From contig JBBELK010000517.1 in assembly GCA_037783545.1 (NCBI GenBank), forward strand, positions 1,116,001 through 1,180,000: a stretch of DNA of 64,000 nucleotides, in the 5' to 3' direction. The DNA is from Henricia sp. BOLD:AAB3569 (Eukaryota > Echinodermata > Asteroidea > Spinulosida > Echinasteridae). How positions within the stretch are numbered: position 1 is the stretch's first letter; each line of letters opens with the position of its first letter. The notes below the pieces were generated by a model, which saw only the letters and a program-made list of their open reading frames with translations, searched no databases and had not been told where the DNA came from. Of this stretch, positions 5,153-44,500 are shown in pieces. The translations under genes were made by a program, and so were the position numbers.

Positions 5153-6398
5153 GTGCGTTCTGATTTTTGTTAGATGGTGGCTTGTCGCCCGACAAAAATG
5201 GTGTTATCGGTCTGTGTAAACACTTTTTAGGGCCGATTCACCGACAAAATCGGTGGCCATTTGAAATCTGAAATTGCAGACTCCAGTCGGCCGATTTAAC
5301 ATTGGTGTCGGGCTGTGTAAACGTGACACCGGTTATGTTGGACGATAAACTTACGCAAAGCACGTGCAAATCGCCATGATTGTCTAGATGTTTCAACGTA
5401 AAGTAAACATGGCGAGCGAGTGGCCCGATACTACGGCACTTAGTGAGAGCCATCTACTTGTTTAGATACCGAGAAAATTGATCTCGCCAAGTTGACTTAT
5501 AACGTGGGTTATGTCGACTAGGCAAGATACTAAGTCACCTTGGCGAGATAATTTGCCAAGTCGACCTCCTGAACTCAATAAGTTGACGAGATAATTTTTT
5601 GCCAAGTCGACTTGACTTCCATAATTATAAATCTTGCCAAATCAACTTAGATTTAGAAAGTCAACATGGCAACATAAAATTTGTCACCACATTGACTTAA
5701 TTCACGTTTTATATACACCAATCCGAGAGCCGAGGACCTGTTCTACGTATGTCTGCCATAACTGGGGCGATCCAGTGCCATGAACTGTACGTTACATTAT
5801 GTTGTCACTTCGAACAATTTGCGCATTCTTTGTTGAAGCCTGTTCACACAGTTTTTTATTGTTTTCTCTGAACAGAGATAATGTATTTTATACATGTAGC
5901 TGCCTTGTACACAGGTTGTTTTTTATCACACATGGAGATAACACGGTTTGTAAGTTTTCCAATCTTGTAATCTGTTTTTGTGTTGTTGAAACATCTATCA
6001 CTGCAGATCTGCAGTTGCGCCCATACCGCACTGACGACTTCATCACCAAGCTGTACTACGAGACTAGTCGCTTTACCGCCCTCAACCAGCAGTGGGTGGT
6101 CAAGGCGCGCATCAATGACCCGCAGCGCAACCCGCTGCACTCCACGGACCGTCACTTGACGTACCAGCTTGTGCTGAAGAATCGCATCAATATCCCCACC
6201 ACGTTTCACTACATGATTCTCGGCGGGCCGTTCACGGACGTCAAGGTGCGCCCGGAGGTGTATCGTTGTGAGTTCACTAACGATAAGACAGAGAGCCCTC
6301 AACAGCTGATGCCATTGGAGAATCCCGCCGACGGGAACAAGCTCCTGTCGGTGAAGACGATTAATATCAGGCTTATTCTGTTTCAGGTACAGAAGTAA
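4941..6398 (+). CDS. ZFTRAF1: ZFTRAF1 (CYHR1), last two coding exons
   Basis: This is the C-terminal part of the cysteine/histidine-rich TRAF-type zinc-finger protein ZFTRAF1. Exons 4941-5152 and 6007-6398 join in phase and end at TAA 6396-6398. The first carries the end of the zinc-finger region (C-x6-C-PWKG...H...C, then FPGKTGS and LLSFEK). The second carries the diagnostic block RPYRTDDFITKLYYETSRF, the NQQWVVKARIND segment, and the terminal NIRLILFQVQK. I recall the vertebrate protein having the same blocks in the same order, including RPYRTDDFI and NINLRLFLFQIQK. The RING-type N-terminal exons are not recognised in the first 4.9 kb and probably lie upstream of the window. The intron contains repeats. 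The molecular role of the family is poorly defined. Confidence 0.9.
5455..5720. repeat. degenerate tandem AGTCGACTTGGCGAGATA-type array in the ZFTRAF1 intron
   Basis: Imperfect alternating copies of CCAAGTCGACTT, GGCGAGATAATTT and their near-complements fill this stretch. Unit length is irregular. It sits wholly in the intron before the last ZFTRAF1 exon. It looks like a minisatellite-like or foldback-derived array. Confidence 0.6.
6007..6398 (+). CDS. ZFTRAF1: ZFTRAF1 last coding exon
   Basis: The acceptor CACTGCAG ends at 6006, and two bases complete the GAT codon split from the preceding exon. The reading then gives LQLRPYRTDDFITKL and ends LILFQVQK-TAA. The open frame continues upstream to about 5799, but that extension is intron and shows no homology. 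No AATAAA is close downstream; ATTAAA at about 6555 is the nearest candidate poly(A) signal. Confidence 0.9.
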
Positions 6399-20691: not shown

Positions 20692-21297
20692 TCAGTTGTC
20701 CTTGTAATAAACCCGCGGATTGGAATACGCAAAAGCTCTTAGAAACACCACGTTGGCAAAAGCTAGCAGATAGTGAAACCAGTCTACACACAGGATGCCA
20801 CCTAAATCGCCGGTAATCCCAACAGCTCCCGCTGCTGCGTATAAAACGGCTGCAAAAATCCCAAACGGATTAGCATGGAGTATGCTGAATATCGCTACAG
20901 ACACGACAGCACCCGTGGACACCATGGACACTAATAGTTGTTCTGTAGCAGAAGTAAAGATGACTGCTCCCTTGGATAAAAATACGAGCGCGAGGGCACT
21001 GCCCACGTGAACAGCCGACAATACGGAGTTATCGTATCGTCTGTGGAATCCACTGGCTATAAGCGACATTCCTACGACAGTGGCTAGCCAAGCCATTGTC
21101 TGGTGCCAATAGAGAACGGTCGGTGATGGCGACGAGAGACTAAAGCGGTATGTACCGCAACTTGCAGCTAGACCCATCAGGGCGAACCCGGCCGAGGCAA
21201 TAAGGTTTGAGGGAAGCAGAAATGTGGCAGTTCCAAAGGACGTGATTGCCAGAATCAGGTCGGATATAGCGGTGCTTATTTGCTGCATGCTGGACAT
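20692..21297 (-). CDS. TMEM276: TMEM276-like multi-pass membrane protein
   Basis: A single-exon frame of 201 codons on the minus strand, with ATG at 21297 and an in-frame stop a few codons upstream. The product is strongly hydrophobic with about six membrane spans and short loops; there is no signal sequence or catalytic motif. It resembles vertebrate TMEM276 in length and layout: an N-terminal TAISDLILAITSFGTA segment, central spans, a FSILHANPFGIFAAVLYAAAG pair and a C-terminal FLRAFAYS tail corresponding to YCRALHTQ. Sequence identity is modest, so the call leans partly on linkage to ZFTRAF1, its neighbour in human. Function of the family is unknown. It is transcribed away from PIEZO, whose first exon begins about 2.1 kb away. 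Confidence 0.62.
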   Translation of the reverse strand: MSSMQQISTAISDLILAITSFGTATFLLPSNLIASAGFALMGLAASCGTYRFSLSSPSPTVLYWHQTMAWLATVVGMSLIASGFHRRYDNSVLSAVHVGSALALVFLSKGAVIFTSATEQLLVSMVSTGAVVSVAIFSILHANPFGIFAAVLYAAAGAVGITGDLGGILCVDWFHYLLAFANVVFLRAFAYSNPRVYYKDN

Positions 21298-21885: not shown

Positions 21886-22291
21886 GGTATTTTTTTCATA
21901 TACATTGAACACGGATTTGGGTAAATTTATATAGTGGAATCGATAGCTTATTCAATTCTAAGATATACTTCCCACTGACACTTCCGTCGCAAATGTTGCA
22001 TTTCTGAGATAAATAAATGATAAAATTACTGCATAAAGTAATGCACAAAATGATGCGGCGAGCGGTCTGTGCGTAAGCGCGACAACAGAGGGCGCTGCGC
22101 GCGCGCGTGAATGGTTATCTTGTGCACTAACTGAAGGCAATTTTTGAAGAGGAAAACGTGATTTTTCTACAGAAAAGCAACATTTGCGACAAAAGTGCAA
22201 GTGGGAAGTATATCTTAAAATTACATTATCTGTTGATTCCAGGAGGTAATTTTCTTTAAAATCTCTGTTCAATGTATACGAAAAAAATACC
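21886..22291. repeat. hAT-like foldback, family J, copy 1, with perfect 8-bp duplication
   Basis: The left end GGTATTTTTTTCATATACAT pairs with the right end at 22291. Inward, AGATATACTTCCCACT and GTCGCAAATGTTGC also pair. TTAAGGTC flanks both sides exactly (21878-21885 and 22292-22299). At 406 bp without coding it is a non-autonomous hAT-type element. Confidence 0.82.
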
Positions 22292-22425
22292 TTAAGGTCC
22301 TGCAAACTCCACGGTAGAAGTGTCGTTCCAAGTAGGGACAACAGTGCCAGAAAGTCTATGCAAATAAAAAAGTTAGTAAAACGGTTTCATATAAAGTGGT
22401 GCGCACATATATACATGATGGAAAG

Positions 22426-22522
22426 AGTTCGAGTTGTCCCGGGTACGAGTTGACCAGGGTGTCTTTTTTGGGGTTTGACTTGTCACAGGTTCGAATTGTC
22501 CTGGGTGCGAGTTGTCCCGTTT
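22426..22522. repeat. short GAGTTGTCCYGGGT tandem repeat
   Basis: About five diverged 20-22 bp units (GAGTTGTCCCGGGTACGAG and variants). The inverse motif is at 21600-21635, so the two may be the ends of one larger element that contains the family J copy. Confidence 0.5.
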
Positions 22523-22800
22523 CCATATTGGGAACCATACACCCTCGCCACTAATTCTTCATCATAATATAACATGAATGATAATAATATGACATGATAA
22601 GAGTAAATATGGTGAGGAAACATGAATTTGCAGTGAGAAAAGTTTTCCTTTGAAAACACTTGACTTATAATTTGTATGTCATGCTCCATAAACTTTAATG
22701 TGCATGGAGTCTCAACTGGCGAGGGTGTATGGTACGGTAGTTTTCCGATGTTCACCGGGGGACTGTGCTGCAAGCTCAAGCAACCAGCAGCCCTAGCCTA

Positions 22801-22848
22801 GCCCCGCGATCGCGAGCAGTGCTTGAATTGAAGCACTGCTCGCGGGGC
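22801..22848. repeat. 14-bp perfect hairpin upstream of PIEZO
   Basis: CGCGAGCAGTGCTT (22811-22824), loop GAATTG, then AAGCACTGCTCGCG (22831-22844). GCCCCGCG and CGCGGGGC around it can pair too. It lies about 0.6 kb before the PIEZO ATG in the spacer between divergent genes. Confidence 0.6.
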
Positions 22849-23379
22849 TGGTCAGACGGTGAAGAGAGACCGTACCGGCGCGGCGAACGAAAAATGCAGC
22901 AGGGGTAGTCGGACTAGTTTCGAAAATCGTTAATAATAATATCAAGAGGCCCTCTCACGATTTTCCCTCCTCACTTACTGTTGTTCAATCACTCAATGTT
23001 TTTTTTAAAATGCATTTACAAATCTTGCGCTGGAGCTAGCTGGATCCGGATATATGCGAGCGAAAATCGGCATAAATTCCAAATAAACAGCGCCCTCTTT
23101 CCTACTGGCCGCACCTTTCGTACATGCCTTGCATGCATCAAGGCCAAGCCATGCGCCAGGGGCCCGGGCATACGGCATGCATGGCATGGCATGCTGTTGT
23201 GTTGTAACAAAAGGCATGAAAGACGCGGGCAGGGATTGCGTCGTTTTGTTCTTTTTCTGCCATCTGCACTTTGCAAACGGACGACTGCAAAGATAACGTA
23301 ATTACATGAACTACCTGTCTCCATCAGTTATCTCTGTGCACTACCAGCCTCTAGCGTGGGGAGATTTTTGGTCCTGAGA

Positions 23380-23458
23380 TAACCCTTTCGTCTAGACCGG
23401 CCGCGGAGCACGCGAGCCGTGAATTTTGACAGGGCGCGCCGGGGTCCGAACCGTCAAC
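23380..23458 (+). promoter_or_regulatory. probable PIEZO promoter/5' UTR region
   Basis: CpG-rich sequence (GACCGGCCGCGGAGCACGCG, GGGCGCGCCGGGG) directly precedes the exon 1 ATG and contrasts with the AT-rich surroundings. No TATA box is obvious. A promoter here is inferred from position and composition only. Confidence 0.4.
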
Positions 23459-23537
23459 ATGGGGGCTCTCGATTTGGGGAAGCTCGCCTTCTCAACGGTG
23501 CTGTTTAAGATCGTCTTGGGAGTTATCTTGTTAGCAG
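23459..23537 (+). CDS. PIEZO: PIEZO exon 1a (short N-terminus)
   Basis: ATG 23459 opens MGALDLGKLAFSTVLFKI, continuing as a hydrophobic helix VLGVILLA, and ends at donor GTAAGG (23538) after one base of a split codon. Length and hydrophobicity match the start of vertebrate PIEZO (short lead, then helix 1). The next exon completes the codon as GCT. Confidence 0.85.
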
Positions 23538-26500
23538 GTAAGGAGAATTTTCACCAAGCAAGCAACACATGGTTGTGGTGTTCGTTTGGAACGAGAAGCC
23601 ACCCAGCAATTGTCGATTTGTATGAGAAGAAGAAGATTACTGAAAATTGAATGTGATAATTTGATTCTGAAATTTCAATTGCAAAAGCTTAGGCCGGCCT
23701 GGGCCTGCATTATGAGCGCATTGCCAGGTCATATGTTACTTGTTGAATAGTTTGTGTTAGAAATTTACTAGGTTAATGATTTGATGATTTTTGTCTTTTT
23801 GAACCGACTGAAGAATCGGAAGCATTATTGAAGAATTTGCCTATTGGAAACATCTTATTGTATTGTAACAAATATCTTTTTATTGGGTGATACTATTTAC
23901 CGGAAAATAACGGGAAAACACACCGGAAAACACACCGGAAAACACACCGGAAAACACACCGGAAAACACACCGGGAAAACATACTAAATACCGGGATACA
24001 CACTAAATACAGGAAAACATACTAAATACCTAGACAATGTTACCTCGGCTCAAATTTTTTCATGTGGTGTAATCTTTTAACCCGAACACAAAAAAATGCA
24101 CCCAAAACTATGCCAACAAATACAGAAAACACCAAAAAATACTGATTTTCTGCTGTTTTCTCTATGTTTTGGGGAGTTATTTGGGTGTTTTCTGGTATTT
24201 ATTGTGTTTTCCTGTGTTTTCTTTTTTGTGTTTTCTCTTTGTTGTTTTCCGGTATTTAGTATGTTTTCAGGTGTTTTGCAATGTTTTTCAGGGTTTTCCG
24301 GTAAATAGTACTTTAACGTCTACAGGTTACGCTTTTCTTATCTATGGATTTCCATAATATTAAGGTTTAACAGTGAGCACTAGGGATAGTACTTTTAACC
24401 GGTTAACCATTTAACCGAAAGAAAATGTTTTGCCAAAGAAAATGTTTTGCCAAACGTTTAAACGAAGAATGTACAATAGTTTTCAAAGGGTTATTTGTAA
24501 TGACTTCATGAAATTGATATAAATTTATATGGGGTCGTGGTAAAATGCTGACCAGCAGACAAAGGTTTAACGACTATTTTGGGTGTCTAGGGGGATTGTG
24601 TGCATTGCAAATGCATCTATTCTAAAACACTAGCAACAATCCTTGGTGTCAGCCGAGCGGTTACCTGGTCGACCGACACTTGAAAGAATTGCAAACCTGT
24701 TTTTTAATTAACCGTAAATTCCCATCCCTAGTGAGCACAGTGTTTTCTGCTGTTGAGAATGAATGCAGAGTTGTGATAAAGTTTATTTATTGGGCATTTT
24801 TTTCCGTGTACATTGAATTCCGTGTACTCTTGGAATCAACAGATATTATATTCTCCCACTTGCACTTTTGTCGCAAATGTTGCTTTTCTAAAGAAAAATC
24901 ACATTGCCTTCAGTTTGTGCACAAGATAACCATTCACACGCGCACGCAGCGCCTTGTCGCACTCGGCACGGAGCACTCGCACTGTTCATGCCGTTTTTGC
25001 ATTTACCGGTACCACCGTACTCTCTGCAGCAATTGTATCATTATTTATCTCAGAAATGCAACATTTCCGACAGAAGTGCAAGTGGGAAGTACATACAGTA
25101 TATCTTAGAATTGGATTATCTGTTGATTCCAGGAGGTAATTTCCTTTAAAATACCATTTATTGCATGCAACCTACATACATGCAGAGCGTGTTTCTAGTA
25201 CTGAGCACGAAATGCTTTGGAAACGGTATATTTCCAGTTAAATGGTAAGGTTATTTGCAGATGCACACACCGGCAAATTAAAACCAGCTCAGAGAAGGTT
25301 TGTGCTGGTGCTCCAAATACAAACATACTTCTAGTGTGTTATATGTACCGTAGACCTACTGTTGTTTGATTTGAGAGAAATACACTTTACACACATTTTG
25401 AAAGTCTAATGAATAATTTGCAGGGGTCAAAATTAGCACTAGTCCGCTATTCCAAGACTAGTGGTTTTTGCCGGAGGACTACTACTATACTAGCTGCATT
25501 GTGCCGGTAGTCTGATGGGCTAGTAGGCCAATACATCGTGCTACATCAGGGGCGGATCCAGGATTTTGAAAAGGGGGTGCGTGAAATTTTAAGCATGAAA
25601 TACTGATGACAATGAAATAGCGAGCGCATAGCGCGAAGCCCTAACGGCTTTTAGATGGATTCTAGATGCTCTGTGGTGCGATCTGGGGCAATATTTAACC
25701 ACTTTAAGCAGGAAAAGTGTGCACAAAAAGTGGATTTTTGTTTTTGTTTTTTGGAAAAAGGGGGGGCGGGGGCGTGCGCACCCCATGCCCCCCCTGGATC
25801 CGCCCCTGTACATCATGCTTTCTGCCCACCTTCCCCATTTCCGTCCCTCCGATATCCTTTCAGCCCATCCCGCTCTTTGTTCACCCTGTTTTTGTTCTTT
25901 TAACATAAAGGCGGAGGCTCCATGATTCAGGCATGGAGCTGCACACTTCGTGGCACGATCCTGGGCCCAAGCGCGCATTGATGGGCCTCTGCCTTTAAAT
26001 CTAATTTTTATTTTACATACATATATGTTTTTATTCTACTCATGTGCTTGTATTGGTTTTAATTGATGGCCAAATAAATAATAATAATAATAATAATATG
26101 GTGTTTGTTACCATTGCTATCAACACAAAGTTTAGATTTTTTTCTGTGTTTTAATTCATCTCTGTAGACTTGAATATCCGTCACGTGTGAAACATTAACG
26201 GACTAGTGAAACATTGACGTGACTAGTCCTGTGGGCTATCAAAAAATTGAAGTCAATTTCGACCCCTGCTCCTTTAAGAATAATAGGCCTATTGAAGATT
26301 CTGTTGTCACCTTTACAACAAAAGCCTGAAATGCTCGTGAAAAGAATAAACATTATTTTTGCTGAAAAAAAAAAACAAACGGTAGTTGCAGCTGCTCCTG
26401 TCTATTGTGGCAAAGTGTAACCCCAATACAAGACGATTTCAACCGACCTATATCTTAACTATGGGCTGTATTAAACCCAAGGTCAGCAACTGCCAAGCCT

Positions 26501-29500
26501 TTTTCACATTGGCAGGGGCGCTACGGTACTCTTACACAGACAAAACCTCAATGCTTCACAAGCATTAGTGATGCGTACATGTATGTACTGGGTACCGTAT
26601 ATGAGCCTGCACACAAAGGATGTCTATTTGTTGAATGCTTAGCTAATGGGTCTATTATGCGAACGTGCCTGCAGATTTCAAGGTGGGGCTTTCCACAGTA
26701 AAGGATTACATGGACATTTGGAAACAAAACCATAATTTCATACAAATGCATACATTGTCTCAACAAAAAAAAACTGACAAATGTCCATATGACTTTGGGA
26801 AATCTGGATGCAGTGAAAAGCAACTTGGCTCCACCGGGATTCGAACCGTGGACCTTCTGCTTAACGTGCAGACGCCCTACCAATTGAGCTACATGTATGA
26901 AGCCAATTGGTGGTCTCGAACCACTGTAGTCAGTTTGTTTCTCACTGATTGGGATTAGCTATTACGTGAGCTTAGCAAACCCTACAGAGAAATGACCACC
27001 CCTCCCAGAGATCACTTAAGATACACCATAAACCCCTGCCTGTCTTGCCCCATTATTATGTATGAGTACCGGTATGAATTATAAGTAAAACAAAATTTGG
27101 GATTGTAACCCAGGGACCACCAGTTGGCTTTATAGCACGTTAAGCAGATTGAGAAGGTCCGCGGTTCGAATCCCGGTGGAGCCAAGTTGCTTTTCACTGC
27201 ATCCAGATTTCCCAAACTCATATGGAAATTTGTCAATTTGTATCTAGAATGCATTCACCCCGGCAGTCCCTGGGTTATAACCCCTAAAAAATATAATCAC
27301 TTATCCATACAAAAAACAAATGAGACAAACATTTTAGCCGTGTCCGCATTGGACTTGTTTTTCGGCAGGTTTTACCGAGACGATGGTAAAATGAAAAATG
27401 GCAAAAGTTTACTGCTGTCTGCATTTGGACTTTTTTGACACAGGAAAAATTTACAGAGACCGTGAGAGAGCATGCGCAGTGTCCCTTTGCTGTATGACCT
27501 TGGTGTGAAATGTATACCCGGTACATGTACCATTGCTACATGTATCACAACTTTTAGTCAGATTTTTCTTGTCAACTCGTGAATTAAAATTGCAAATGAA
27601 AAGTTCTGCAAATGATGTATTGGGGCTTTAATAAAGGCCCATTGTATCGTTTGCAATGACCCAATTTTGTTTTTCATGAGTTGACAAGAAAAACCTTACT
27701 CAACGTGTTGATAGCAATGGTAACAAACACCACATGAATTTATTTCCATCCAAAATGGTATTTCATGTTGAAAATTTACAACCGAAGGTTGGTTTCTAAA
27801 AAAGTCCTGTACACGGGACTTTTTTTACCATTTACTTAAGTACACAAATGCCATAGATTTTCAAGGTTTTCTGAAGCACTGATGCATCTATGTACATGTA
27901 GCTAAAATTTCTTCAGGCTAGTTTTATACCAACATTCTTCTTATTTGACACTCTTTTCCACGAATCTGCAAAAAGTTGTATCTTGCGAATGATACATAAG
28001 GCCTGTAAGACATTTCATACATGTATACATAGAAAGGAAGTGCATGTATTGACTAATTGAGGAAGTTTCCTATACAATTGAGGTTCAAGGTTGAACCCTA
28101 GAGGAAGGTCACTTCTCATTTATGAGTTCTGTTGAGTTTGCACATGACAGTTATATTTAGATTTCATTGTTTTGACAGGAAATGCATGCTATACAATATA
28201 CTTATTATAGAATCAACAATTGTTTTTGCACTTATAAGATTTTATTAGTGTGAACAAAATACCCCTGTTTTGTACAGCCAGATCTTTTTAGCAACCACCT
28301 GCACAGAAAGACCACCTGTACATAAAGACCTCTCAAAATGTCCCCTGCCCCTGAAAAACCATATATTCAAGGTTAATCCCTGTACAAAAAGACCACCTCC
28401 AAGTGACCTACATGTAATACTAGTGACCATTCATTGTCTGTTCACACTGCAGGGCAGGAAATTCTTCACTGAATCGGCACTGCCATTTGTGTTTTTGAAG
28501 GAGTCGTTTGAAGATTAAAAAGGGCACTTCCATTGGAAAATGAACAAGTCTGTCAGCGGCCTAGGGTGGGGGCGGGGGGCGGCATGTGCCCTACCTGTAG
28601 CACCGCCACCAATATGGCGGAACCTGAACTTTAAGAGTGGACAGAAACTTTGTTTGGCTAGTGCAATCATCCACTGCCCAATCGCCACCAAACTCCGTCT
28701 AATAGTTCTTGAGACACTCACCTTGCGTGTATCTACGGAATTTTGGTACTATTTGTCCATGTTGAAAATCAACGGGTACCGGTACATGTGCGATACATCC
28801 ACAGACATGATTCAGGCATTCGGTTCTGGATTTTCCAGAACTGCCGCGTGCGCGATGCTAAATCGAATGAAGGCGCGCAACATGATGTAGTATGTAGTTG
28901 AATTTTGTGTATTGTAAACACTCCTGAACGAACACATGTATACGGTAGTACTGCCCATGCAGCACATGCTACGGTAAGTACACGATGTTGTGTACAATGG
29001 CGTTGTGTAACAAAATTGCACTACGTGTACATACATATTTTTAATTAGGCCGTGAGGCTTTTAGTTGGCAATTTGTTTGGTTTCTTGTTTCCTTAAACTC
29101 ATTTCTTTTAATTTACATTGGGAAATAATTTTCTAACTTATGCTTTGATTTACACGGAGCACCGAAAAAAAGTTTAAAAAACGCGCACAGAAACCTTTTG
29201 CAAAATGCATAATGAATCTGTTCCATGTATGTGAATATTTTGATGTCGACTTAATTACAAAAGAGATTTTCAAATTTATTCCTCGGAATAAAAAGCTACT
29301 TACACTTATCGCAAATTATTTTGAACTAAATTATTTTGCCCTATTGCCTATGGTACATGGCATCCATGCATGTTTTGTACAGGGAAAGTGTGCACTTGTT
29401 TGTGCAGGAAAATCTCACACACTGACACCATCTCAGCCATGTGTACATTACACGTGGAGCGAGCGTGTGTCTGCTGTCTACATGCTGTGCCTCAATAGAG

Positions 29501-32500
29501 GCAAACAGACGTGCTCATTAAAATCTCGGGCGGCGGCAGTTTTTACCCTTCGTTGCCGACCGGGCGCAGGCACGCGTCACGAGGCCGGGTCATTGAGTTG
29601 CGCCTTCAAGTGTTGCTGTGTAGGCTACATGTACATGTAGAGTAGACCATATTGTCTAATGTGTATGGCCAAGCGTCGTTATTGACTAGGCCTATTGATC
29701 TGTTTTTCGGTACTATAAACCTTGGATTTTGAAATTAGAATTGTGCTTGAGTGATTATAAAATTGTAGGTTTTTGTTCAAGGATTAAATTCAGTGTGCCA
29801 TTAAAGTATGGCGTGTGTACAATTTTTTTAAATCCAAAAATCAATGCATGTAAATTGCTTTTAAAGTAGGACCCTACATTATTGTTCCTCACTTGATTAT
29901 TATTTTAATTTTGTTTGGCACAATATCATGGTCCAATGCCATATTTTTGTCCAAGTAAAGCATTTAAAATGTTGCCTTCTATGGTATTTGCCTTCTGTGT
30001 GTTATTTATTATAATAATATTCAGTAATGAAACCTCCAAAGTAAATATTTACAAAATAAACACAAAATACATTCCCACAATTGTATTGTGAGAATGTACC
30101 GCTGCCACACACTGGCAGTAGACTAGGCATTACATGTGTACAACCAAAACCATCGGAGGAAAACAATATTTTCACAAAACAGCCAATGTGTGAAATGCAC
30201 TTTTATCATGTCTTAATTTTATACACTGTATGTACCAGTACAACACAAATTATCAAATTTAGGACATGATGTACGAGTATTAAAAAGTGATGCTTGGCAG
30301 CTGCAATAACATCAATATTAAGAGTGCAGTTGATGTTGATTAAGTTGATGCAGTTGATCAAGCAGTTGATGCTGGAAAAGCTCATTATTTTTTGTTTCAA
30401 AATATGACGTGCAGATCACAACAAAAACAGCCTTTTTAATTTTATCACGTTTTCTTTATTGTCTTTTCCTGATAGCACAAACTTCAACAGCCATGCAACT
30501 CTTTATAGGAACATCTGCACAGTATTCTTTGTTTAATTAAAAATATTTTTTTGCCAAATTTGTTTCGGTTCAGTACATTTCTGAAGCCACTTGTCAAATA
30601 TTCTGTAGTTCCTTTATTATGAAAATCCACCCTTGTGCAGCTATTACAGGAAGCACCACACAAGGTTGTCTGGTGTATGGATGACCTTGTATATGGATGA
30701 CCTTGTATTGTCTATAATGGAACTCGGTGCTATTTCATAATGACACAGCCTGTTTACACTTGATCCCGAGCCCAAGTTCGAACACCGAGCTCAAGATCAG
30801 CCCAGGATCACAAAAAGCCTTTTCACACTTGCAAAATCTCAGGGTTGGTGCAGGGTTGGAAAAAAGCGACGATTCACACTTGAGAAATTTCAACCCCGCG
30901 TCAACCCCGAGATTGCTTTCAACCCAGGTTGAACTCAACCCTGCTCGGGACCAGGGTTGAAATTTTTCGCCCCGGGTTGAAAACGGTAGTAGGCCTGTTC
31001 ACACTTGCACAAGTGTTAATCTTCACTGTTCATATCTCGGGGTTGAACTCGCCCGGGGCGAGATAAAAGCGGGTTGAGCGAAACAAGTGTGAAACGATGA
31101 GGGGTTGAAAATTTGTGTTTTTAACCCGGGGCGGTCGCGGGGCTCGCCCCGGGTTGAGTTCAACCCGGGTTGAAAGCTCTAGTGGAAAAAGGCCTAAAGT
31201 GAGTTTAAACGCTCTCTGAACCAAATTGGTTTTATGTGACTAATTTAATGCTGCAGACCAATTGTAGACTTGACAATCAACAGTACACACTTGCTTTTAT
31301 GAAAGCCCTAATCAGCGTTGGAGGTCTCGAGGCCGGCCTCGGCCTCGAGGCCGGCCTCGAGGCCGATTTTTGAGGCCTCGGCCTCGGCCTTGGCCTTGGA
31401 CGTTGATGGTCTCGGCCTCGGCCTTGGCCTCGGAGCTTTCCGGCCTCGTGAAACTGGTCGAGGCCGGCTCGAGGCCGCCCAATTTCCACCAATTCAAATT
31501 TGTTTTCTGTTTCAAATTATTTATATTTTATTACCATATTAAAATTCCCGAAAGGCTGCAGTAATGGGTTCCTTCTGTGTCTCCCCTCCGTGTTAAACGA
31601 AATGAAAAAATACAGCACGCACGATCGAATGAATAAACTGGAACCCCGGCCTACAGTCGTACAATTACCGGTATGTACAATGTACACGTACGTTGCGTGC
31701 GTCCCTAGCATCATAATTTATGGACTTCTTTTAGTCCTCGGCGACCCAGTCGGCAATTCTACTCCCGCTATAGACTGGCTTCTGGTCCACCACGTCACCC
31801 ATAAACTGTCACTCCTGTTTCATTGCACTATGCATCGCACATACTCACTGCATCATCTTCTTGTTATACAACCAGTCTAACTCCCGCTTCGCACTGGTTT
31901 CCGCTCTACGGTGTGCCTGAACGTGTGCAATAGGTACAGGGAACCTTCGCTGTACTGCGGATGCGTGCGTACATGTATGTACGTTCGCACAGTACATAAT
32001 CACTCTGTACATGCATCACGCACTAACCGCTAACAAAACCTTGATAATTGTTTAAAATGTCTTCAAATTCCCGGATCATCCAGTTCGGGTTTGTCAACCA
32101 CGAAGAATATGAAGAAAAGGGGAAAAGAAAACATAGAGCCTCCTGCAAGTTTTGCAAGGCAAAGTCTCAAAAACTCAGCGAGTTCTGCGGCACGACATCG
32201 AATTTTACAAGGCACCTTCAACGTGTTCACAAAGCAAAGTAAGTGTGTTCTTTACGTTCACAGGTTGTTTTGTCTCCTTGTTTTTGCCTAATCCTAGCTG
32301 TCATTTTTAAAATTGTTGGAATTTTGTTCATATACATTGAACAAAGATTTCCTCCTGGAATCAACACATAATGTAATTTTAAGATATACTTCCCACTTGC
32401 ACTTTTGTTGCAAATGTTGCTTTTCTGTAGAAAAATCATGTTTTCTTCTTCAAAAATTGCCTTCAGTTTGTTTTTTTATATATGTGTGTGTGTACATAAT

Positions 32501-35500
32501 ATAACCGGCCTCGGCCTCGGCCTCGGCCTCGGACACTTTGGCCTTGGCCTCGGCCTTGGCCTCGAATGCTGTGACTCGGCCTTGGCCTCGGCCTCGGAGA
32601 CCCATGACTCGGCCTCGGCCTCGGCCTCGGAGGTTGCGGCCTCGACTACAACCCTGGCCCTAATGCATCATTTGCAAAACTTTACTTGACAAGTTCACAA
32701 GAAAAACCCGACTAAAAGTATTAATAACAGTAGTAACAAACACCAAGAAGGAGGCCAAGTCGAAAGTACATGTAGCGAATTCTGAAATTGACTTGTTTTC
32801 GTATGGCGTTTAAATCTTAACCTTTTGGACAAAACTGATGAAAGTCACTCAATAAAATCTGTCAGGCCTCATTTACATGATGTGAAATTTTGGTTTAAAT
32901 CCGTTGAAAAATGACAAAGTTATTTAAGATTAAAAGTAGGACATGTCTTTTTTTGACACGTATATGTAACAAATCTTGTTAATTCAGCAAAAATATGAAA
33001 TTCTAAAAGACCATGTTTGATTCTTATGGTAGTAGGTTCGAAGCTCCCTTCCTGTGCAAAGTGTTTATGCCCTTAAGCAAGGCACTTTGCCATAAGTTTC
33101 TTCTCTCCACCTACATGTAGGAGTAAATAAGCCTGATTTCATTTTAATGCCAACAGCATATTTCTGTGATTTTTTTTGATAATAGATTATTGGTACCAGC
33201 AAATGCTTGACATAAACTTTTATTCGAAGAATTGATATATTGGATAAGAGAAAAATCATGCAGCTCACATCAAAACTTGAACCTTTGACGCACATTCAGA
33301 GCCACATATGAAATGAGAGAAAAATAATATAATCCTCCTCCGGATTTGATCCAAAGATTATTGACACACCGGGCAGATGCTCTGGCAGCTGAGCTACACA
33401 ATGTGGAATTTCTTTTCGTTTTAGAACGACAGGTGCCAGTGTATTCACACTGAACACAATATAATTACATAACAACTGGCTATATAAACGCCACGTTTGC
33501 TTCAGTAGCTCACTCTCGGTCAACCGTGTCAACTTTGCCGTACAATGATTCTACAGAAGCAACGCTTATCAGACGTTCCGACGTTCAAACGCGACGGCAT
33601 CAACAGCAGCACAAGCACTGCGAGAAGCTTCTTTCGCTTGTCGAGTCGGCCATTCAGAACATTGACAGCCTTGACATCGACTCGGCCAAGACCGACTGGA
33701 ACGCCGCCGTGAAGTCCATCAAGGAACGTCAAAAGCTCATACGACTTGCTGACCGTTCTGATCTCGGCTGGGGAGTTGTGAAAGAGTACATTCCCCTTTG
33801 CCCTTTCTTTTGCGACTTTCTATAGACTACAGCAAGGTTCACACAACGACCTAGCCACTGTTCACCATTGGAAACATTTGACCTGTTTTTGTCCTTTTCT
33901 TGTCTCACATGAGGTATAATTAGAAAAGAAATGAATTTTCTGACGGAAGTATGGAGGAAGAAAGTGGAATTTCTTTTCGTTTTAGAACGACAGGTGCCAG
34001 TGTATTCACACTGAACACAATATAATTACATAACAACTGGCTATATAAACGCCACGTTTGCTTCAGTAGCTCACTCTCGGTCAACCGTGTCAACTTTGCC
34101 GTACAATCCCGCCCACCCCATTTTCCCACTTCAATCAGAATTCGGACCCGGGGAGTGCACCCCTGTCGAGTGCCCTGGATGCACCCACGTTTCCTCCAAT
34201 GGCTGGGGGTTTTTCGTGGCCACCGAGCGCCAGCACACATTGCTGGTCCGACACTCGACCCGAATTCAGTTTCAGTTCCGAGACACTTTATTGTCGAGAC
34301 CTAGATACTGTGAACTTTTTTATTGTTTACAGCTCGCAATTCATACATCCAACTTGGTTCAGATGCTAGTTTGATAGCCTCTAAATCGCTAGGCCTTTAA
34401 CACGGCTTACACCAGACGTGTATAATTATTGTTTTCAACCACATTTGAAGGACATTACATTTGTGCATATAATTTGATCCTAATCAAGCTGATTAGCGGA
34501 GTTTAAAATAAATCGAACAGCAAGGTTCACACAACGACCTAGCCACTGTTCACCATTGGAAACATTTGACCTGTTTTTGTCCTTTTCTTGTCTCACATGA
34601 GGTATAATTAGAAAAGAAATGAATTTTCTGACGGAAGTATGGAGGAAGAAAGTACCGATACCATACATGTACATGTACATGTATGTATTGAATGCACAGT
34701 GCTACTTGTACGCAGGCAACCCCCTTGTGGTTTTCCCTAAGTGTGCACCCCACTAAATCAGACCCTATTGGAAACGATGGTAAATGCCCAGTTTTAAAAA
34801 ATCATTTAAAAATACTCTGAGCTCTCACAGCTTTTTGGGATGGAAATAAAAACTCCACTTAAAATCTCATCTTTTCAATTACGTTCAATTTTATAGGGAG
34901 AGTTTGTCACTTTTATTCACCAATTTCCACTTGAAATAAAACCATCCCTGCAAGAGCAAATATTGCCAAATATGCCAGCGTTCCACACGCACTTCTGGGC
35001 TATATTTGACTATTTATTAGCTAGATTGTCAAAAATATTTTAAATTGAAAGAAAAAATATACCACATTACAGCGATTTCTACATAACATCACACTTGTTC
35101 AGCTCTGAACTCTCTGACGGCCGTCCAAAGTTGTCAACATTTCTAAAGTGACTTTAATTCGCCATTTTCAGTTCACTTTTTGCATTTACACATAGCGCCT
35201 ACCCGGCCTCAACTTGCCTTTTTTGAAGTTGCGGAGTCAAATCAAGTGTAAACAGGCCTTATTACTGGCACACTTTAACCTAGTATTCCATGACCTTGGT
35301 CAGCATGCTTAACATTGCACAGTGTGTTTATAGAGCCCCAGAAATCACAGCACCTGCCTGGCCAAAAAGTACAACTAACCCCACTCCAGCATGAATGAAT
35401 ACAGTGTACATGTGTGCCAAGAAGCCAGATCATTCAAACTGTGAGAAGAAGCTGTGAGATGACAAGATTTTGAAGATACTGTGATGGAAGTATGCCCTCT

Positions 35501-38500
35501 GTCATTGTCAATAATTACTAGCCTGTAGATAAATACATACGTATGGCCGGAATTATAGTTACATGTATGACCCATGGGATCATGCAGGGGACACAGCTTT
35601 GTAACATTATTAAATGACATAACATGCATTTATAGGCCTATGGTTGCTTTATTTGGTGTGATCCTTGGTTAAATCGGCAATCGGAGTTTAATGGCTTTTG
35701 ACTGACACCCCTCAGGCAATGATACATGTAGTTTGTTCTGAAGGGCCATGATTATAAATTGAAAGAGCATCATAAAACAGAGTTAGGGTTAGGGTTAGGG
35801 TTAGGGTGGGGTTCCGTGGCCGAGTGGTTTGGGTCACTGACTCGCAATCACAGGTGAAAACAGGGGGGTGGCGGGTTCGAAACTCACCCCAGCTGGGGTG
35901 CCTGTGCCCTTGAGCAAGGCACTTAATCACACTTGCTCCATCCTTCGGAAGGGATGTAAAGCCGTTGGTCAAGTTTGTACTGTAACGCACTTTGAAGATC
36001 CCAGAGCATTCTTTCGTAAAAAGCAAGGGGATTCCCCGGTGTCTCTTGCTGTTTCTAATTCATCATGGGTTTCCTCACGCTTGCAATGGGCACTTTGGAA
36101 CCAGAAATAAATGTACCAGAAATAAATAATAATAATGCAGTTTAACATATGCAAACATGTAAAACTTCATGTTGAGATACATGTAATATCAGTATCTACC
36201 AGTACGGTAAAGGGAACTTCATCATTTTTGACACAAATATAGGCCTTTGTACACTACGGCCTCTCAACCCGGGTTGAACTCAACCCAGGGCGAACTCCGA
36301 GACCGCTCTTTGTCTTCTTTTTTTTTCAACCCAGCGTCAACCCCAAGATTTTTCAATTGTGAAAAGGCCTGATGTCCATTCTTCACAGAAATTTCGAACA
36401 CATGATTCCCGCCTTTATTCTTATACCAGTAAACCACTGTGAATTAGCATATGACGCCATTCTCGAGTAATACCATTTTCACCAGCGGCCATGACATGGG
36501 TTAAGTTTGCATGTGACAATAGATCTACAAAGTGCCTACTTATCATGCATGATGCACAGTGACATTAGAGAGGTTTCGCAAGGCGACGAATACGGTTAAA
36601 AATACAGATATGATAACGGTAACCGTTCACGTTGATGCACTCACTATACTGGGTTTCGCACTGTGTGACTACGTGCATACATTTCTCTGCTAAATCTGCT
36701 CTGTGCTTGGCTTTGTTTTCAACTGATTTTCCTCACTTTCATGTGGGCATGATTCATTAAATTCGATCGGTATTCATTGAAGACAAAATGCATAAAACTT
36801 ATTAATCCATCACGGAAAAAGCGAAAAATCCGCATAACCGGTATATGTTTTTATGCTACGCGTATGGAGGCCGTTAACCATTATTCACGCGTATGAAAAC
36901 ATGTGTACTACGGTTACGTGTCACGAGAAGCGCATAAAGTCATGACGTATCGGTATCCGTGACAGTGCAAAACCTAATGTAACTGCCCCCTGTCATGGCC
37001 GCCCAAAGTGTTATACGTATGTACCCCGGTATGTACATGTAGCACATCTTTTTTATTACATGTACTTTATTATATTTTTAAGTTATAAAACAAGAAACAG
37101 AAAGTCAAACACAAAGTGCAACAGAAAGTGCATGAAACTTTCAAAATCAAACCTTTTTGATTCATTCAGAAGGCCTGATTCCGTTATTACCAACATCAAT
37201 TTAAAAATCTGGTAACCTTAAAAGGCCATTTTTACAAAAACCGTTACTGTACATTAGAAAACTTACACTTTGGCTTCCTTTATCACAGAAATACCCACGT
37301 ACATGTAGTTACATGTACTGTTTCTGTTTTACACCCCTGCAACGTACAGAATGACATGGTTGTACTGTATACCGTACATGCACTTTTTCCCTCAACATTA
37401 AAGACTGGAAATTTATTGAAGACATACCTGGATTACACGTTTCTTCGCTCATCAGTGCGATTGGTTAATATTACCACATGTACCTTCTGGAGATACTCCT
37501 GTCCAATTTACATTGTAAGTGAATAACCGGCTTTGATAGAGTAGATAAATCCCACCGTATGAAGTATATATTGAACTTTGAATGCAAAGTCTGGGCCTTA
37601 ATTAGTATTTGTCCACCAATATCAATGCCACATGACATAGTTTGGCTGGACTTTGTAAGACTGAGCAAACACATGTTGGAGTGCAGTGTCTGAGCGAAAC
37701 AGCAAGCCATGCGAACGAGTTTCACAGTACTGCAATATATAGTGTGCTTGTGCCAGGTTTTTTGGATGATGTGGTATTTGAACGGAATACTGTGATAAAC
37801 GGTGAAGGGGAAAAATGGATGGTAAAAAAGGAAAGTACACTCCCATTCCCTCAGATGAATCTTCAGCAGATGAAGCTGACACGGTTGATCTACGTGGGTC
37901 GGGTTCTCATCCACCCAAGGGTAGTAAATCCAGCTTGAACAAGGATGGACGCACGTATCACATGTATCAGGATAGTTTGCATAAACCATTTGAGACCTCG
38001 AACACAATTGACCCATCCATGGATATCGATGGTGGCGAAAGTCACGACAAACATCCCTACGATATTTACGACCAACCGAAGCCAGGCCTGCCTCACAAGC
38101 ACGATGTTCAGTCCGCCCACGACAGCGAAACCGCGACCTCTGCGGGAAGCACAGTAATGAGCAAGCTTGCGCTGCAGGATCTGTGGCAACGCATTAAGAA
38201 GTCGATCACGACTTCGTGGTCGGATTCCAGCAGGGGCTTGGGTCATTTCTGTCGAGTGACAAAAGCGTGGGTTTTCTCGCGATACTTCCTCACGTGGCTT
38301 CTTTTGTATTTTGTGGTCGGTCCGACACTCATTACTGGTGAGACTGAGATTAACTCCTGTAGTATATGTGTATGATGATGTATTAAAAACAAGTGCTTTG
38401 GTGTTTAATGTTGTTAAAGGTTGGTATAGGTATATGGTAGGCTGCAGTTGTTCTGCCATTGTTAAACTTCAAGTGGTAAAGTGTACCACAGTAAAGAGTT

Positions 38501-41500
38501 TTCAGAACATGTTTTGTCAAGCGATGTACATGTAGTGTTTTGAAGTGATGTGCTGTTTTTATCCTTTTTTTGTGAAGATTTTTGTTTAAAGTTGCACTGT
38601 CCGATTTTAGGCTGATTTGAGCATCAAAAATATTTTAAAAAGTTAAATTGCTATTTAAATATTTTTCTAGAATAGAAAGTTATCAGCTTTCATTTGGTAC
38701 CAAGAACGTAAAAATCCGTCAAGGATTAATGCCAGTCGATTAACATGTGTTAAGTGGAATGCAAGCGATCGCATGGACCGGGGAGCAGTCTAGGCCAATC
38801 ATTGTTCGTGGGGTACAATGGCGGCCGGCGCGTGGCTTCAATTCTCGTATAGCCAACTACTATTGCATACTTCATCCAGTGTATATAGGTATATCGATGG
38901 TTATGACATACATGTAAATGTACATGTGTACATTGTACATATGTGCACGTACGCGCACATGTACAACATGTGAAGCCCGTTTCAAGAAAAAGGCAGGTAT
39001 CTCCAATTCCCGACGTCGGAAATTTAATTTTTTAAAATATTTTCCGTTACAGAGAAACGTAAGCTTTCTAAATTCGTTTGCTTGTGTGAATTAGTTTTTA
39101 AAATCCTTTCACCCAAACATGGACAGTGCAACTTTAAATGAGAGGATTGTTAGATGTACATGTAGGATATGGAATTCAGTGTTAAAATTCTTTACAACAA
39201 TGTTTGTGCAATGTATGCTGGTATGTACCACCTGTACATGTAATGAACCACCAGGCAGGTGATTCAACAAGGTTTATGGTGCTTGGAGGGGAAAAGAAGA
39301 CCAGCATAAAATAATAATTACCAATGAACAGAAAATATTACCTGGTTATTTAGCATAGGAAAACTCTGTAAAATGTACAGATTTAGGGATGGGAATTTAC
39401 AGCTAATTCAGAAACCGGTTTGCAATTTATTCAAGTGTCAGTTAACTGGTTAACCATTCGGCCGACACTAAAGATTGTTGCTGCTGTTTATAGTCTATAG
39501 ATGCATACTTATGTGCAATGTACACAATACCCCTAGGCCCCCAAAATAATAATTGAACCTTTATATCTAGTCAAACTTTTACTGCGACCACATATAAATT
39601 TATTTTAATTTCATTGAGTCATTACAAATCACCCTCTAAAAACTATTGTAAATTCTCTAAAATTGGGTTTCGTTTAAACGTTCTGCAAAAACATTTTTTT
39701 TATAATGATGTCCCCTAACGTGGCGCAATTCAATAACTCACTGGAAATCCACTCACACTGCAGCAAAATAATCCATCAGCATATGAGGTTTAGAATTGTA
39801 CAGCTTAATCCAGAAAAACAGTCATTCACTTATTTTGGCCAAGTACAAATGACACAAATAATGGAAAAACTTTGACTGATGCTGCAAAAGTATTATACTC
39901 ACGGAAAATTTTCTAAGTGTTCCCTAACATGGCGCACTCGACACCTGTGATGACCATTTGTACGCACGCACCGTGATACAGGAGACAATGCCAATAGGCA
40001 TGTCTGTTACAGGCTCTCGTGATGTATGTAAGATGTCGCATCAAGCTTAAAAGCGAACGGCACTGCCTTCACCTTCCGGTGAATTTCTCCGTATTTTAGT
40101 AATTGAAATTTATGAAGGTACTTGAAAACTTTATTTTAATGTCAAGTGCAACAGATTGTTCATTGTGCCAAGAGAGAGTTGAAATTAAAGTGCTCCATGT
40201 TAGGGGACAACAATAAATGTACACTAGTCAACAGCACTAGTAATAAACATCCACACACTGGCCCATGGTGGCCAGCCCGCAGTGGCCGGCCGGCCAGTCT
40301 TTTTTTTTACCCTGGTCTTGGCCTTGGTGCTCTTTATAAAATTTCCTCAATTGCATTGCATTCGCATTGCTTTCAACTAATTGTTAAATGGATGTACAAC
40401 TTGTATTCTCTGATGCAATTCCCATTGTTTCTGTGTTTTTTGCCAGCTTCCATACTTCGCTACAATGCCTTGTCTGCTGTGTATCTCCTGTGCCTTTTGG
40501 TACTACCTCTCATGCCCAATCCCAGTCGGAGGACCATGTCTGGTAAGTCACTTTTTTGACTGTTTTTATGCAGATTACATTGATCGAGTCGATGCATAGC
40601 ATACATCGACATTGCAACTGGAAGCAACACAATTGATCATTTGCTGTCGGTGTGCGTAGCGCGCTTATCGACATAAATTGATCAGTTGTGCAACTAGCGG
40701 CAACTGAGAACATCCAGTTTTCAAAGCGTGCACATCGACACGGCAACTCAGTAAAGCCTAGAGTACATTGACTTTGCAACTGGAAGCAACTGTTGCTTGC
40801 AGTTGTTGTTGATGTGCGCGCACGTATTCAGACACACACGTGCAACAGACAACAACTAGTTGCAACTACGGGTACATCGACGCAACTGACCCCAACTGGG
40901 TACAACTACATGTAGTTGCCAGAAAGTAGAACATGAGCAACTTGCGGCAACTGGAAATTTTTCCAGTTGCCAGTAGTTGCAAGTACGCGCACATCGACCT
41001 TTTTTAAGCAACTGATCAGTTGCTCACAATTGCCGCGAGTTGCTTCTAGTTGCCAAAAACACCAGTTGCCACTAGTTGCTTCCAGTTGCAATGTCGATGT
41101 ATGCTAGGCCTAAGAGTTGCATTCCCACAACAAATCTCTGGTTGCAAATTACCTGGGCTAACGAGCTAAAAATGCCACTTAAACCGGGTAGCTTTTAGCC
41201 CATATCTGGAGGTGTGTTAATCAAGGTTCTCCGTTAACTGTTTTGTTTGGTTATCAACCTGTTTGACCTGCATGGGATGAGCTGGCCACTACATTTGTGT
41301 GCCTCCAATGCAGCCCCCATCATGGTGCAGGAGTTCAGAGTGGCGCACCCTGCCTCGGCGGCTCTTACAGAGGCTGGTGCAGTCAGCCTTGCCACAAGAG
41401 GTGGTCATACTTGCTACTGAAAATGTTCTTGGCTACCTCAATCTTTCGGTCAGATTAAAAACTTGCGTACATCATGTTTTGATGAGTATCTTTGTTTGCT

Positions 41501-44500
41501 GTGCTTTGTTGATAATAATTAAACAATAGAGATGTAAACGTAATCCATTTTGTCCCTAGCATGTACATGTACATTTATTGGTAATTTGTAAAGACGGACT
41601 GTAATGAACGAATTGATGATTTTGACCCTCAGGAGCAACAGGGGCCTACCTGCTCATATTGCTCATCTTGGCCATCTTAGCATGCCTCACCCAAGCCATA
41701 TTCCAGATTGTGTTGGCTGCTAATTCACCCTATGGACACGGTTGGGAACCATGTAAGTATACATTCTAAAATCCACTTAAAAAGTTAGAAAGTACATGTA
41801 ATGCATAAAAATTGTAATAAGTTTCATCAGGGAACTTACTTGTACATGTTTTTTTAAACTGGGAATCTGTTCTGTGGTAGAATTCTGTAACAGTGAAAAG
41901 ATGGGGTCGTTCCTTTGAGCTCTGTATGATGGGGGAAAATATACAAATATTGACTACTCATCATGAGGATGATGGTGCACACTACTGTCCCGAGGTGATC
42001 CTGAGATGGCAGGCCTGCCGTCTCAAGATCCCTGAGCGGTGGTGCACCATCACCCGAATAAATATTTGTTTTATTGATATTTGTGTCAAATGATTGGTAT
42101 TTCAGGACAAGATTGAGTTTTCCCTGAGAGCCAAGCCAAAATGCACATTGTCCACGTGAACGCAAGCACCACTACTACATGTAAATGGCTTCACGTGAAT
42201 GCCTGCACACTGTCACACACGAGTGTACTGGCACACGCACACGTGCGCAATATTCCGTATGTGCAATATTCCGTACACGCTGGGGAATAGTACTTAAAAA
42301 TGTACTATCCTACAATAGTACTTTTTTTCAGATGCGCACAGAAATGGTTAGACTAATCCATGTTGTGTGACATGCTTTTAACCAATCAGTGAACGAGAAT
42401 CAATGTATGAGGTATATAAAATAAATTAACTCTCCCTTTGATGTTTTATTTCAGGTAATGGAACTGAGGCACTGTGGAGACAACTAGGCTACCAACCGTG
42501 AGTTTAACTATTCAACCAATTTTTTTCTGTACTAGTTATGTCCTGCTGTATGGACCCTTTGCACCGGCGGCCATGACGGGGAGCAGGTTTTCATATTTAT
42601 AAAATGATGCAGTGGACTTAATTTTTGCATTTCTAGATTGATCATACTGCATTCAAATTTACTCTACAGTATACGTACATGTAGGCCAATTCGGGAATTT
42701 ACACTTAATAAATCATGACTAAATCAGGGTAAACGAATATTCTATATTCGATCGAACACTTTGTTAGAATATTCAAATAGTACATTATCCGAGTTGACCC
42801 AGCCCTAAAAACCAGACTTCTTGTATTTTGTAACAATCATTGTCTTTTCATTGCACTTTGCAACCAGGTTGAACGATCTCTCCGCTGCTTCTATCTGTCG
42901 CCTTATCCTGCCTGACGTCGTCGTCCTAATCGTCACAATCTTCGTTTTTGTCACCTGCAAGAAAGTCTTTGCCCCGCCGAAACCCACAGAAGAGTCCCAG
43001 TCCACGGAAGACGATGGCACTGCTGCCGTGGTCGAGCGACGCACTCGGCCCAAGTCCGTCGTGGTCGAGGGACTACAGGCTTTCGTCGCTATGGTGCTGT
43101 GTGCGTTTGCTGCCGTCATTTTACCATCAGCCATTTCGGCATTCTACTTCGTATTGTTTCTCCTCGTCATCACGTGGTGGTCGTTCTATCAATCGTGGGG
43201 TCGTAGGTTCTATCATATGTGCATCGTATGGCTGCTCTACAGCGGGGCACACATCTTTGTGTTGTATCTCTATCAGTTCCAGTTCTTTCAAGAGGTTTTG
43301 GGCATGGAAGAGTTCTTTGCAAGGTAAGAGAAGTGTTTACGAAGGGAATAGATGTGTGTTTGGATGGTTTTAAACTGTACTTTTTAAAACTAGATAGGGG
43401 TCTGTCTTCAGTCTAAGATACACCATATGTTCTGATTGAATTTCGGTGTCTTAAAGGTAGAGTACATCATTTGCAGCGACCCCAATTTATTTTCACGAGT
43501 TGACAAGAAAAACCTTACTAAAAGTGTTAATAACAATGGTACCAAACACCACATGATTTTATTTCAGTCCAAAATGGTATTTTGTGTGATAAATTAACAA
43601 CTGAAGATTATTTTCAAAAAAAAAAACAAAGTCTGGCCAGAACCCTACATGGCTGCAAGTTCCAGCGTTTAGACTAATTTCAAAATTATAGCTTGAATAA
43701 ATTCACTGCAGTGACTACTTGACTTTATCTGACTTGATCGACATGTCTGACTTGACTTGAGACCCAAAGGCAGTTAGACTTGACATTTGACATTTGACTT
43801 GACATTTGACTTGACTTGAGACTCGAGCAGAGGGAGACTCGTTCCAACCTTGCCATGTCGTGAGACATTCTGCCAACCTGTACACACTATAGACTGCCAC
43901 ACTATAGACTGCCACACTATAGACTGCCACACTATAGACTGCCACACTATAGACTGCCACACTATAGACTGCCACACTATAGACTGCCACACTATAGACT
44001 GCCACACTATAGACTGCCACACTATAGACTGCCACACTATAGACTGCCACACTATAGACTGCCACACTATAGACTGCCACACTATAGACTGCCACACTAT
44101 AGACTGCCACACTATAGACTGCCACACTATAGACTGCCACACTATAGACTGCCACACTATAGACTGCCACACTATAGACTGCCACACTATAGACTGCCAC
44201 ACTATAGACTGCCACACTATAGACTGCCACACTATAGACTGCCACACTATAGACTGCCACACTATAGACTGCCACACTATAGACTGCCACACTATAGACT
44301 GCCACACTATAGACTGCCACACTATAGACTGCCACACTATAGACTGCCACACTATAGACTGCCACACTATAGACTGCCACACTATTGATGCTTTATAGAC
44401 TGCCACACTATTGATGCTTTATAGACTGCCACACTATTGATGCTTTATAGACGTCCACACTATTGATGCTTTATAGACGTCCACACTATTGATGCTTTAT

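Follow-up and report, generated by a model that had tools for sequence, protein, structure and literature searches.

Does the first intron of the PIEZO gene of this sea star contain a second coding first exon, and would a channel that starts from it differ at the tip of its blade? The window, by which we mean the whole stretch of 64,000 nucleotides analysed here, lies on contig C517 of a searched genome of 740.7 Mb in 2104 contigs. Judged from its sequence, the host gene is a PIEZO channel gene, with the Piezo_TM1-24 domain, a downstream cap and the first two helices all present. A Pfam search of the genome returned six Piezo_TM1-24 matches (best E 3.2e-31) and two Piezo_cap matches (best E 2.1e-36), all on C517, the latter downstream and on the same strand, and with these two profiles the genome yielded no further PIEZO gene at E 0.001. 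The parts of the gene needed first are these:

23459-23537, + strand: PIEZO exon 1a, coding part, 26 codons and one base (G), MGALDLGKLAFSTVLFKIVLGVILLA
40447-40542, + strand: PIEZO exon 2, common to both first exons
42821-43324, + strand: open frame with a downstream PIEZO exon (PF24871, Piezo_TM1-24, E 6.6e-34)

Exon 1a ends in CAG ahead of the donor GTAAGG, and exon 2 begins with CTT behind the acceptor TTTTTTGCCAG. Joined, exons 1a and 2 match PIEZO1 chains in the PDB (best E 8.9e-7, query residues 15-56 on chain residues 10-51) as well as PIEZO2 (E 0.00038), which identifies exon 1a as the canonical first exon, encoding the canonical first helix.

The surroundings of the gene and the assembly itself call for a few remarks. 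About 2.2 kb ahead of exon 1a and divergent from PIEZO lies a coding-like hydrophobic frame of 201 residues (20695-21297, - strand; p 0.013 and 0.05) without a Pfam match above the cut-off. Further upstream, the frame 5799-6395 (+ strand) shows coding periodicity, with a margin over frames +1 and +2 that exceeds 400 of 400 nulls and a margin over the best other frame at p 0.285; it has no Pfam match and is perhaps part of some upstream gene. Short-unit tandem repeats keep several frames open on both strands at 43717-44418 (TIDCH, AVYSV and SIVWQ repeats), and at G000:C517:1264548-1266273 (L022/L023) one strand carries three open frames of 532-559 codons that overlap, probably a tandem repeat too. 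Many gene matches in the genome come in pairs with equal or near-equal scores (C22/C571, C525/C1102, C132/C190 and others), as if both haplotypes had been kept for some loci; the PIEZO matches are single. The mitochondrial contig, C955, holds COX1 three times, 16,221 bases apart, and is thus a concatenated assembly. Its COX1 has AAA at sites that we take to be conserved asparagines and ATA at presumably conserved isoleucines, a usage that makes the mitochondrial code that of echinoderms (table 9, common to flatworms). An inverted frame before COX1, which we assume to be ND1, and five of six tRNA genes found by ARAGORN, likewise inverted and before COX1, form an order that we believe to be the one of sea stars.

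Within intron 1 the following signals delimit the candidate:

37736-37742, + strand: TATATAG, a possible but weak TATA box that starts 79 nt before the ATG
37803-37805, + strand: in-frame TGA, the nearest upstream stop, just before the ATG of exon 1b
37815-38337, + strand: candidate exon 1b, 523 nt, 174 codons and a G, encoding a tail, an amphipathic stretch and a membrane helix
38338-38343, + strand: splice donor GTGAGA, behind an exon end CTG

The start context, GAAAAATGG, has A at -3 and G at +4. Exons 1a and 1b each leave one base and would join exon 2 in the identical frame. The initial annotation, which had described a frame of 523 nt with an upstream in-frame stop, a good ATG context, a GTGAGA donor and the one-base remainder of exon 1a, is borne out in all of these respects. 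Because the TGA at 37803 is in frame, the frame cannot extend from an upstream coding exon; an internal exon following exon 1a is ruled out by in-frame stops up to 37803. The TATA-like element has to be read against a frequency of one TATAWA per 1150 nt in intron 1. The GC content of exon 1b is exon-like: it stands at 0.499, where windows of 523 nt across intron 1 average 0.402 and 2.9% of them reach 0.499. A transposon or other repeat is ruled out as the origin of the exon, given a single match in the genome at the DNA level (E up to 0.001, in a search that passes over very common words) and a single one at the protein level (E up to 10). In bacterial and archaeal collections and in viral ones, where no relatives are expected, 44 and 2 stretches matched by peptide pattern, none of which was confirmed.

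The predicted product of exon 1b falls into three parts:

37815-38150, + strand: residues 1-112, a tail rich in Ser, Asp and His, without predicted structure, net charge -8
38151-38276, + strand: residues 113-154, a basic juxtamembrane stretch, net charge +5, modelled at moderate confidence as helical from residue 114 on
38277-38336, + strand: residues 155-174, a predicted membrane helix, SRYFLTWLLLYFVVGPTLIT, which would replace the helix of exon 1a

A structure model leaves residues 1-113 without structure and folds residues 114-173 into one helix. It was made from the single sequence with no alignment and has a mean pLDDT of 59.8, so that little outside the last helix is meaningful; there the block means reach 91 and 93 over residues 151-170. 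The hydropathy of this end is 1.78 with the residues of exon 2 and 1.43 without them, and the terminal hydrophobic helix that had been claimed for the frame is indeed predicted. The accompanying description of an acidic tail rich in Asp, His and Ser holds for these three residues and less so for the charge, which is just mildly negative (net -3 over residues 1-154, composed of -8 followed by +5). The N-terminus of PIEZO is expected to be cytosolic, and by the positive-inside rule the distribution of these charges would likewise place the tail in the cytosol. No known domain is found in the tail in Pfam at E 10. Residues 8-11 read YTPI, presumably a sorting-type motif of the YxxPhi class, and residues 16 and 17 are possible sites of what we take to be the casein-kinase-2 type.

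Compared with known PIEZO proteins, exons 1b and 2 together match PIEZO1 at E 2.3e-5, more weakly than exons 1a and 2 (8.9e-7), and PIEZO2 at E 5.2 (0.00038 with exon 1a). The helix of exon 1b bears a slight likeness to known PIEZO first helices (shuffle p 0.041); among 1218 overlapping hydrophobic segments of G protein-coupled receptors (GPCRs) that served as a control, 5.75% score as well as this helix and none reaches exon 1a, and homology of the helix with those of known PIEZO proteins is not established, nor is a common origin with the helix of exon 1a.

Could so suggestive an anatomy arise by accident? A chance open frame without function in intron DNA, aided by the locally high GC content, is one of two main rival readings, and the length of the frame speaks for it. 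On the opposite strand, open frames of 240 codons (37474-38193) and 192 codons (37893-38468) overlap exon 1b, and introns simulated at the stretch's own composition yield 0.59 frames of 120 or more codons to a donor per intron (150 simulations, whose zero helix counts are uninformative because the helix cut-off of 1.6 exceeded the 1.43 of exon 1b without exon 2 residues). Open length by itself is therefore not special. Two order-2 models of 600 introns each, which used a somewhat different threshold from the order-3 simulations below, likewise gave 8 and 17 frames that run for 150 or more codons up to a donor. What chance rarely supplies is the combination with a helix at a donor of the right phase: such long frames numbered 0 and 1 per 600 introns in the order-2 models, and in order-3 Markov copies of intron 1 a phase-1 helix occurred in 105 of 1500, a frame of 100 or more codons in 55, and both in one.

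When 22000-40440 was scanned blind on the + strand for frames opening with ATG and running in phase 1 into a GTRAG donor, eight candidates emerged, and the only two ending in a membrane helix were exon 1a (hydropathy 2.41) and exon 1b (1.78); five others had a hydropathy of 0.82 or less and one was too short for scoring. Over 170 kb, with both strands and any phase admitted, 14 of 413 ATG-to-donor frames have at least 100 codons and 9 have a hydropathy of at least 1.78, and both thresholds are reached by two, exon 1b and a frame at 79392-79694, which lies between PIEZO exons in the downstream part of the gene. The combination of phase, length and helix is rarer than chance, although these figures flatter exon 1b somewhat, the features having been picked after the finding was seen.

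Codon statistics discriminate less well, and their weakness counts in favour of a chance frame. They rest on two GPCR-heavy models, a 3-periodic one built from 43 coding stretches of this genome (18 GPCR, 20 dynein and 5 PIEZO) and one of plain codon usage built from 23 (18 GPCR and 5 PIEZO); L046 and L047, which contain stops as cut, were excluded and L066 was trimmed to its last 250 codons. Under the 3-periodic model the frame of exon 1b is the best of six, with +21.2 bits and a margin of 17.7 over the runner-up, the in-register antisense frame (3.5). Each of the 43 true coding stretches, when left out, likewise scores best in its own frame, and per codon exon 1b exceeds 4 of the 43. By thirds, exon 1b scores -1.6, 10.8 and 12.3: the first third is without coding signal, another frame lying slightly above it (2.3), and the antisense frame leads in the middle third (16.1 versus 10.8). 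Of the 103 open frames in 170 kb with at least 110 codons, the exon takes 17th place, with PIEZO exons and tandem repeats among those above it. Stop-free nulls of the same composition give p 0.05 and 0.018 for its lead over frames +1 and +2, p 0.75 and 0.51 for its lead over the strongest competing frame, and p 0.10 for its raw score. Plain codon usage gives the antisense frame 0.126 and exon 1b 0.061. The coding statistics for exon 1b are thus weak and mixed, suggestive only. The scarcity, in the simulations, of long frames that end in a right-phase helix makes a functionless chance frame unlikely.

The frame might also belong to another transcript. It reads 12 residues beyond the donor to a stop at 38373-38375, which is shortly followed by a signal of a different kind:

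38382-38387, + strand: ATTAAA, then GT-rich DNA, a possible poly(A) site of a nested gene

Read-through to this stop, with ATTAAA and GT-rich DNA directly behind it, would make a single-exon gene nested in PIEZO intron 1, encoding a tail-anchored protein of 186 residues, for which the position of the helix close to the C-terminal end is well suited. Under this interpretation the right-phase GTRAG donor just past the helix becomes a coincidence (there are 17 GTRAG in 16.1 kb), the hexamer is of a frequent kind here (29 A[AT]TAAA in 15.9 kb), and the protein has no Pfam match. Nor did a Pfam scan that covered ten open frames across the window, with six from intron 1, reveal another gene in the intron, the PIEZO exon at 42821 being the only one above the cut-off. 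We regard a nested gene as improbable. Coding content on the opposite strand, in the frame 37474-38193 or 37893-38468, is very improbable: both frames are long and plain codon usage prefers the in-register antisense one, but each stays within its own stop-free null (p 0.85 and 0.42) and both are without a Pfam match.

We therefore return to the PIEZO gene itself. The interpretation that we consider likely, on the strength of exon anatomy and reading phase, is that 37815-38337 is an alternative coding first exon of PIEZO, exon 1b, served by a second promoter inside intron 1. This is what the initial annotation had proposed, and the proposal stands as far as the anatomy, the phase, the helix and the single copy fit and their joint coincidence is rare in the controls; the codon evidence is weak and mixed and the likeness of the helix slight. 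The finding is probably real. On this model, a promoter of its own within intron 1 would drive the exon 1b transcript, which would be spliced from 38337 to 40447, so that the channel would retain all helices from exon 2 on and carry a different first helix. About 154 mostly disordered cytosolic residues would precede the swapped helix, and at the tips of the three blades this tail might change how the channel is trafficked or anchored or which partners it binds; candidate handles are YTPI and the amphipathic basic segment.

A more tentative extension would be that promoter choice gives sea stars, perhaps echinoderms at large, two PIEZO channels from a single gene. In one of them each blade tip would carry a disordered cytosolic tail that has a sorting-type motif, along with a basic amphipathic anchor and an exchanged first helix, and this channel would respond to force in different membranes or with a different threshold. 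To our knowledge, the far tip of the blade is the least understood part of the PIEZO channel. A natural isoform that alters just the blade tip would allow a direct test of the role of the tip in gating, trafficking and anchoring and, if real, would illustrate how channel diversity arises in an animal that has a single PIEZO gene.

How does exon 1b compare with the PIEZO N-termini already described? The PDB sequences of PIEZO1, PIEZO2 and Drosophila PIEZO continue in a manner like exon 2, and exon 1a is the counterpart of their start. These chains begin at the first helix and none has a long N-terminal tail, whereas exon 1b would add one; the remark in the initial annotation that such a tail was unfamiliar from vertebrate PIEZO1 and PIEZO2 agrees with the chains of both. 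Alternative splicing is known to alter PIEZO properties in the mouse, as RNA processing of the Piezo1.1 and Piezo2 variants illustrates, in a review that presents the two articles it discusses as the only ones exploring Piezo alternative splicing (PMC12490864). The variants described there concern exon 30 of Piezo1 and exons 18, 19, 33, 35 and 40 of Piezo2, and unlike exon 1b do not involve the first exon. In locust PIEZO a transposon in intron 1 is reported to truncate the first exon, which differs from the case of exon 1b (PMC13383693), and the available portion of PMC12919962 contains nothing on PIEZO N-termini. Among the open-literature matches listed, no title or abstract opening mentions an alternative first exon of PIEZO that adds a long tail and exchanges the helix. 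The closest parallel is C. elegans pezo-1, for which 14 mRNA isoforms with a common C-terminus are described as arising through splicing and different transcriptional start sites; a tag placed at the N-terminus labels just the longest eight of them, and the two shortest start from a first exon of their own (PMC7340503). As is proposed here for exon 1b, one PIEZO gene acquires different N-termini from different starts, and an alternative PIEZO start as such is therefore known. The portion of that account available to us does not mention an extra tail combined with an exchanged first helix, such as exon 1b would supply (PMC7340503). A second start, if used, would be shared with the nematode gene, and the addition of a long N-terminal tail together with another first helix is probably new.
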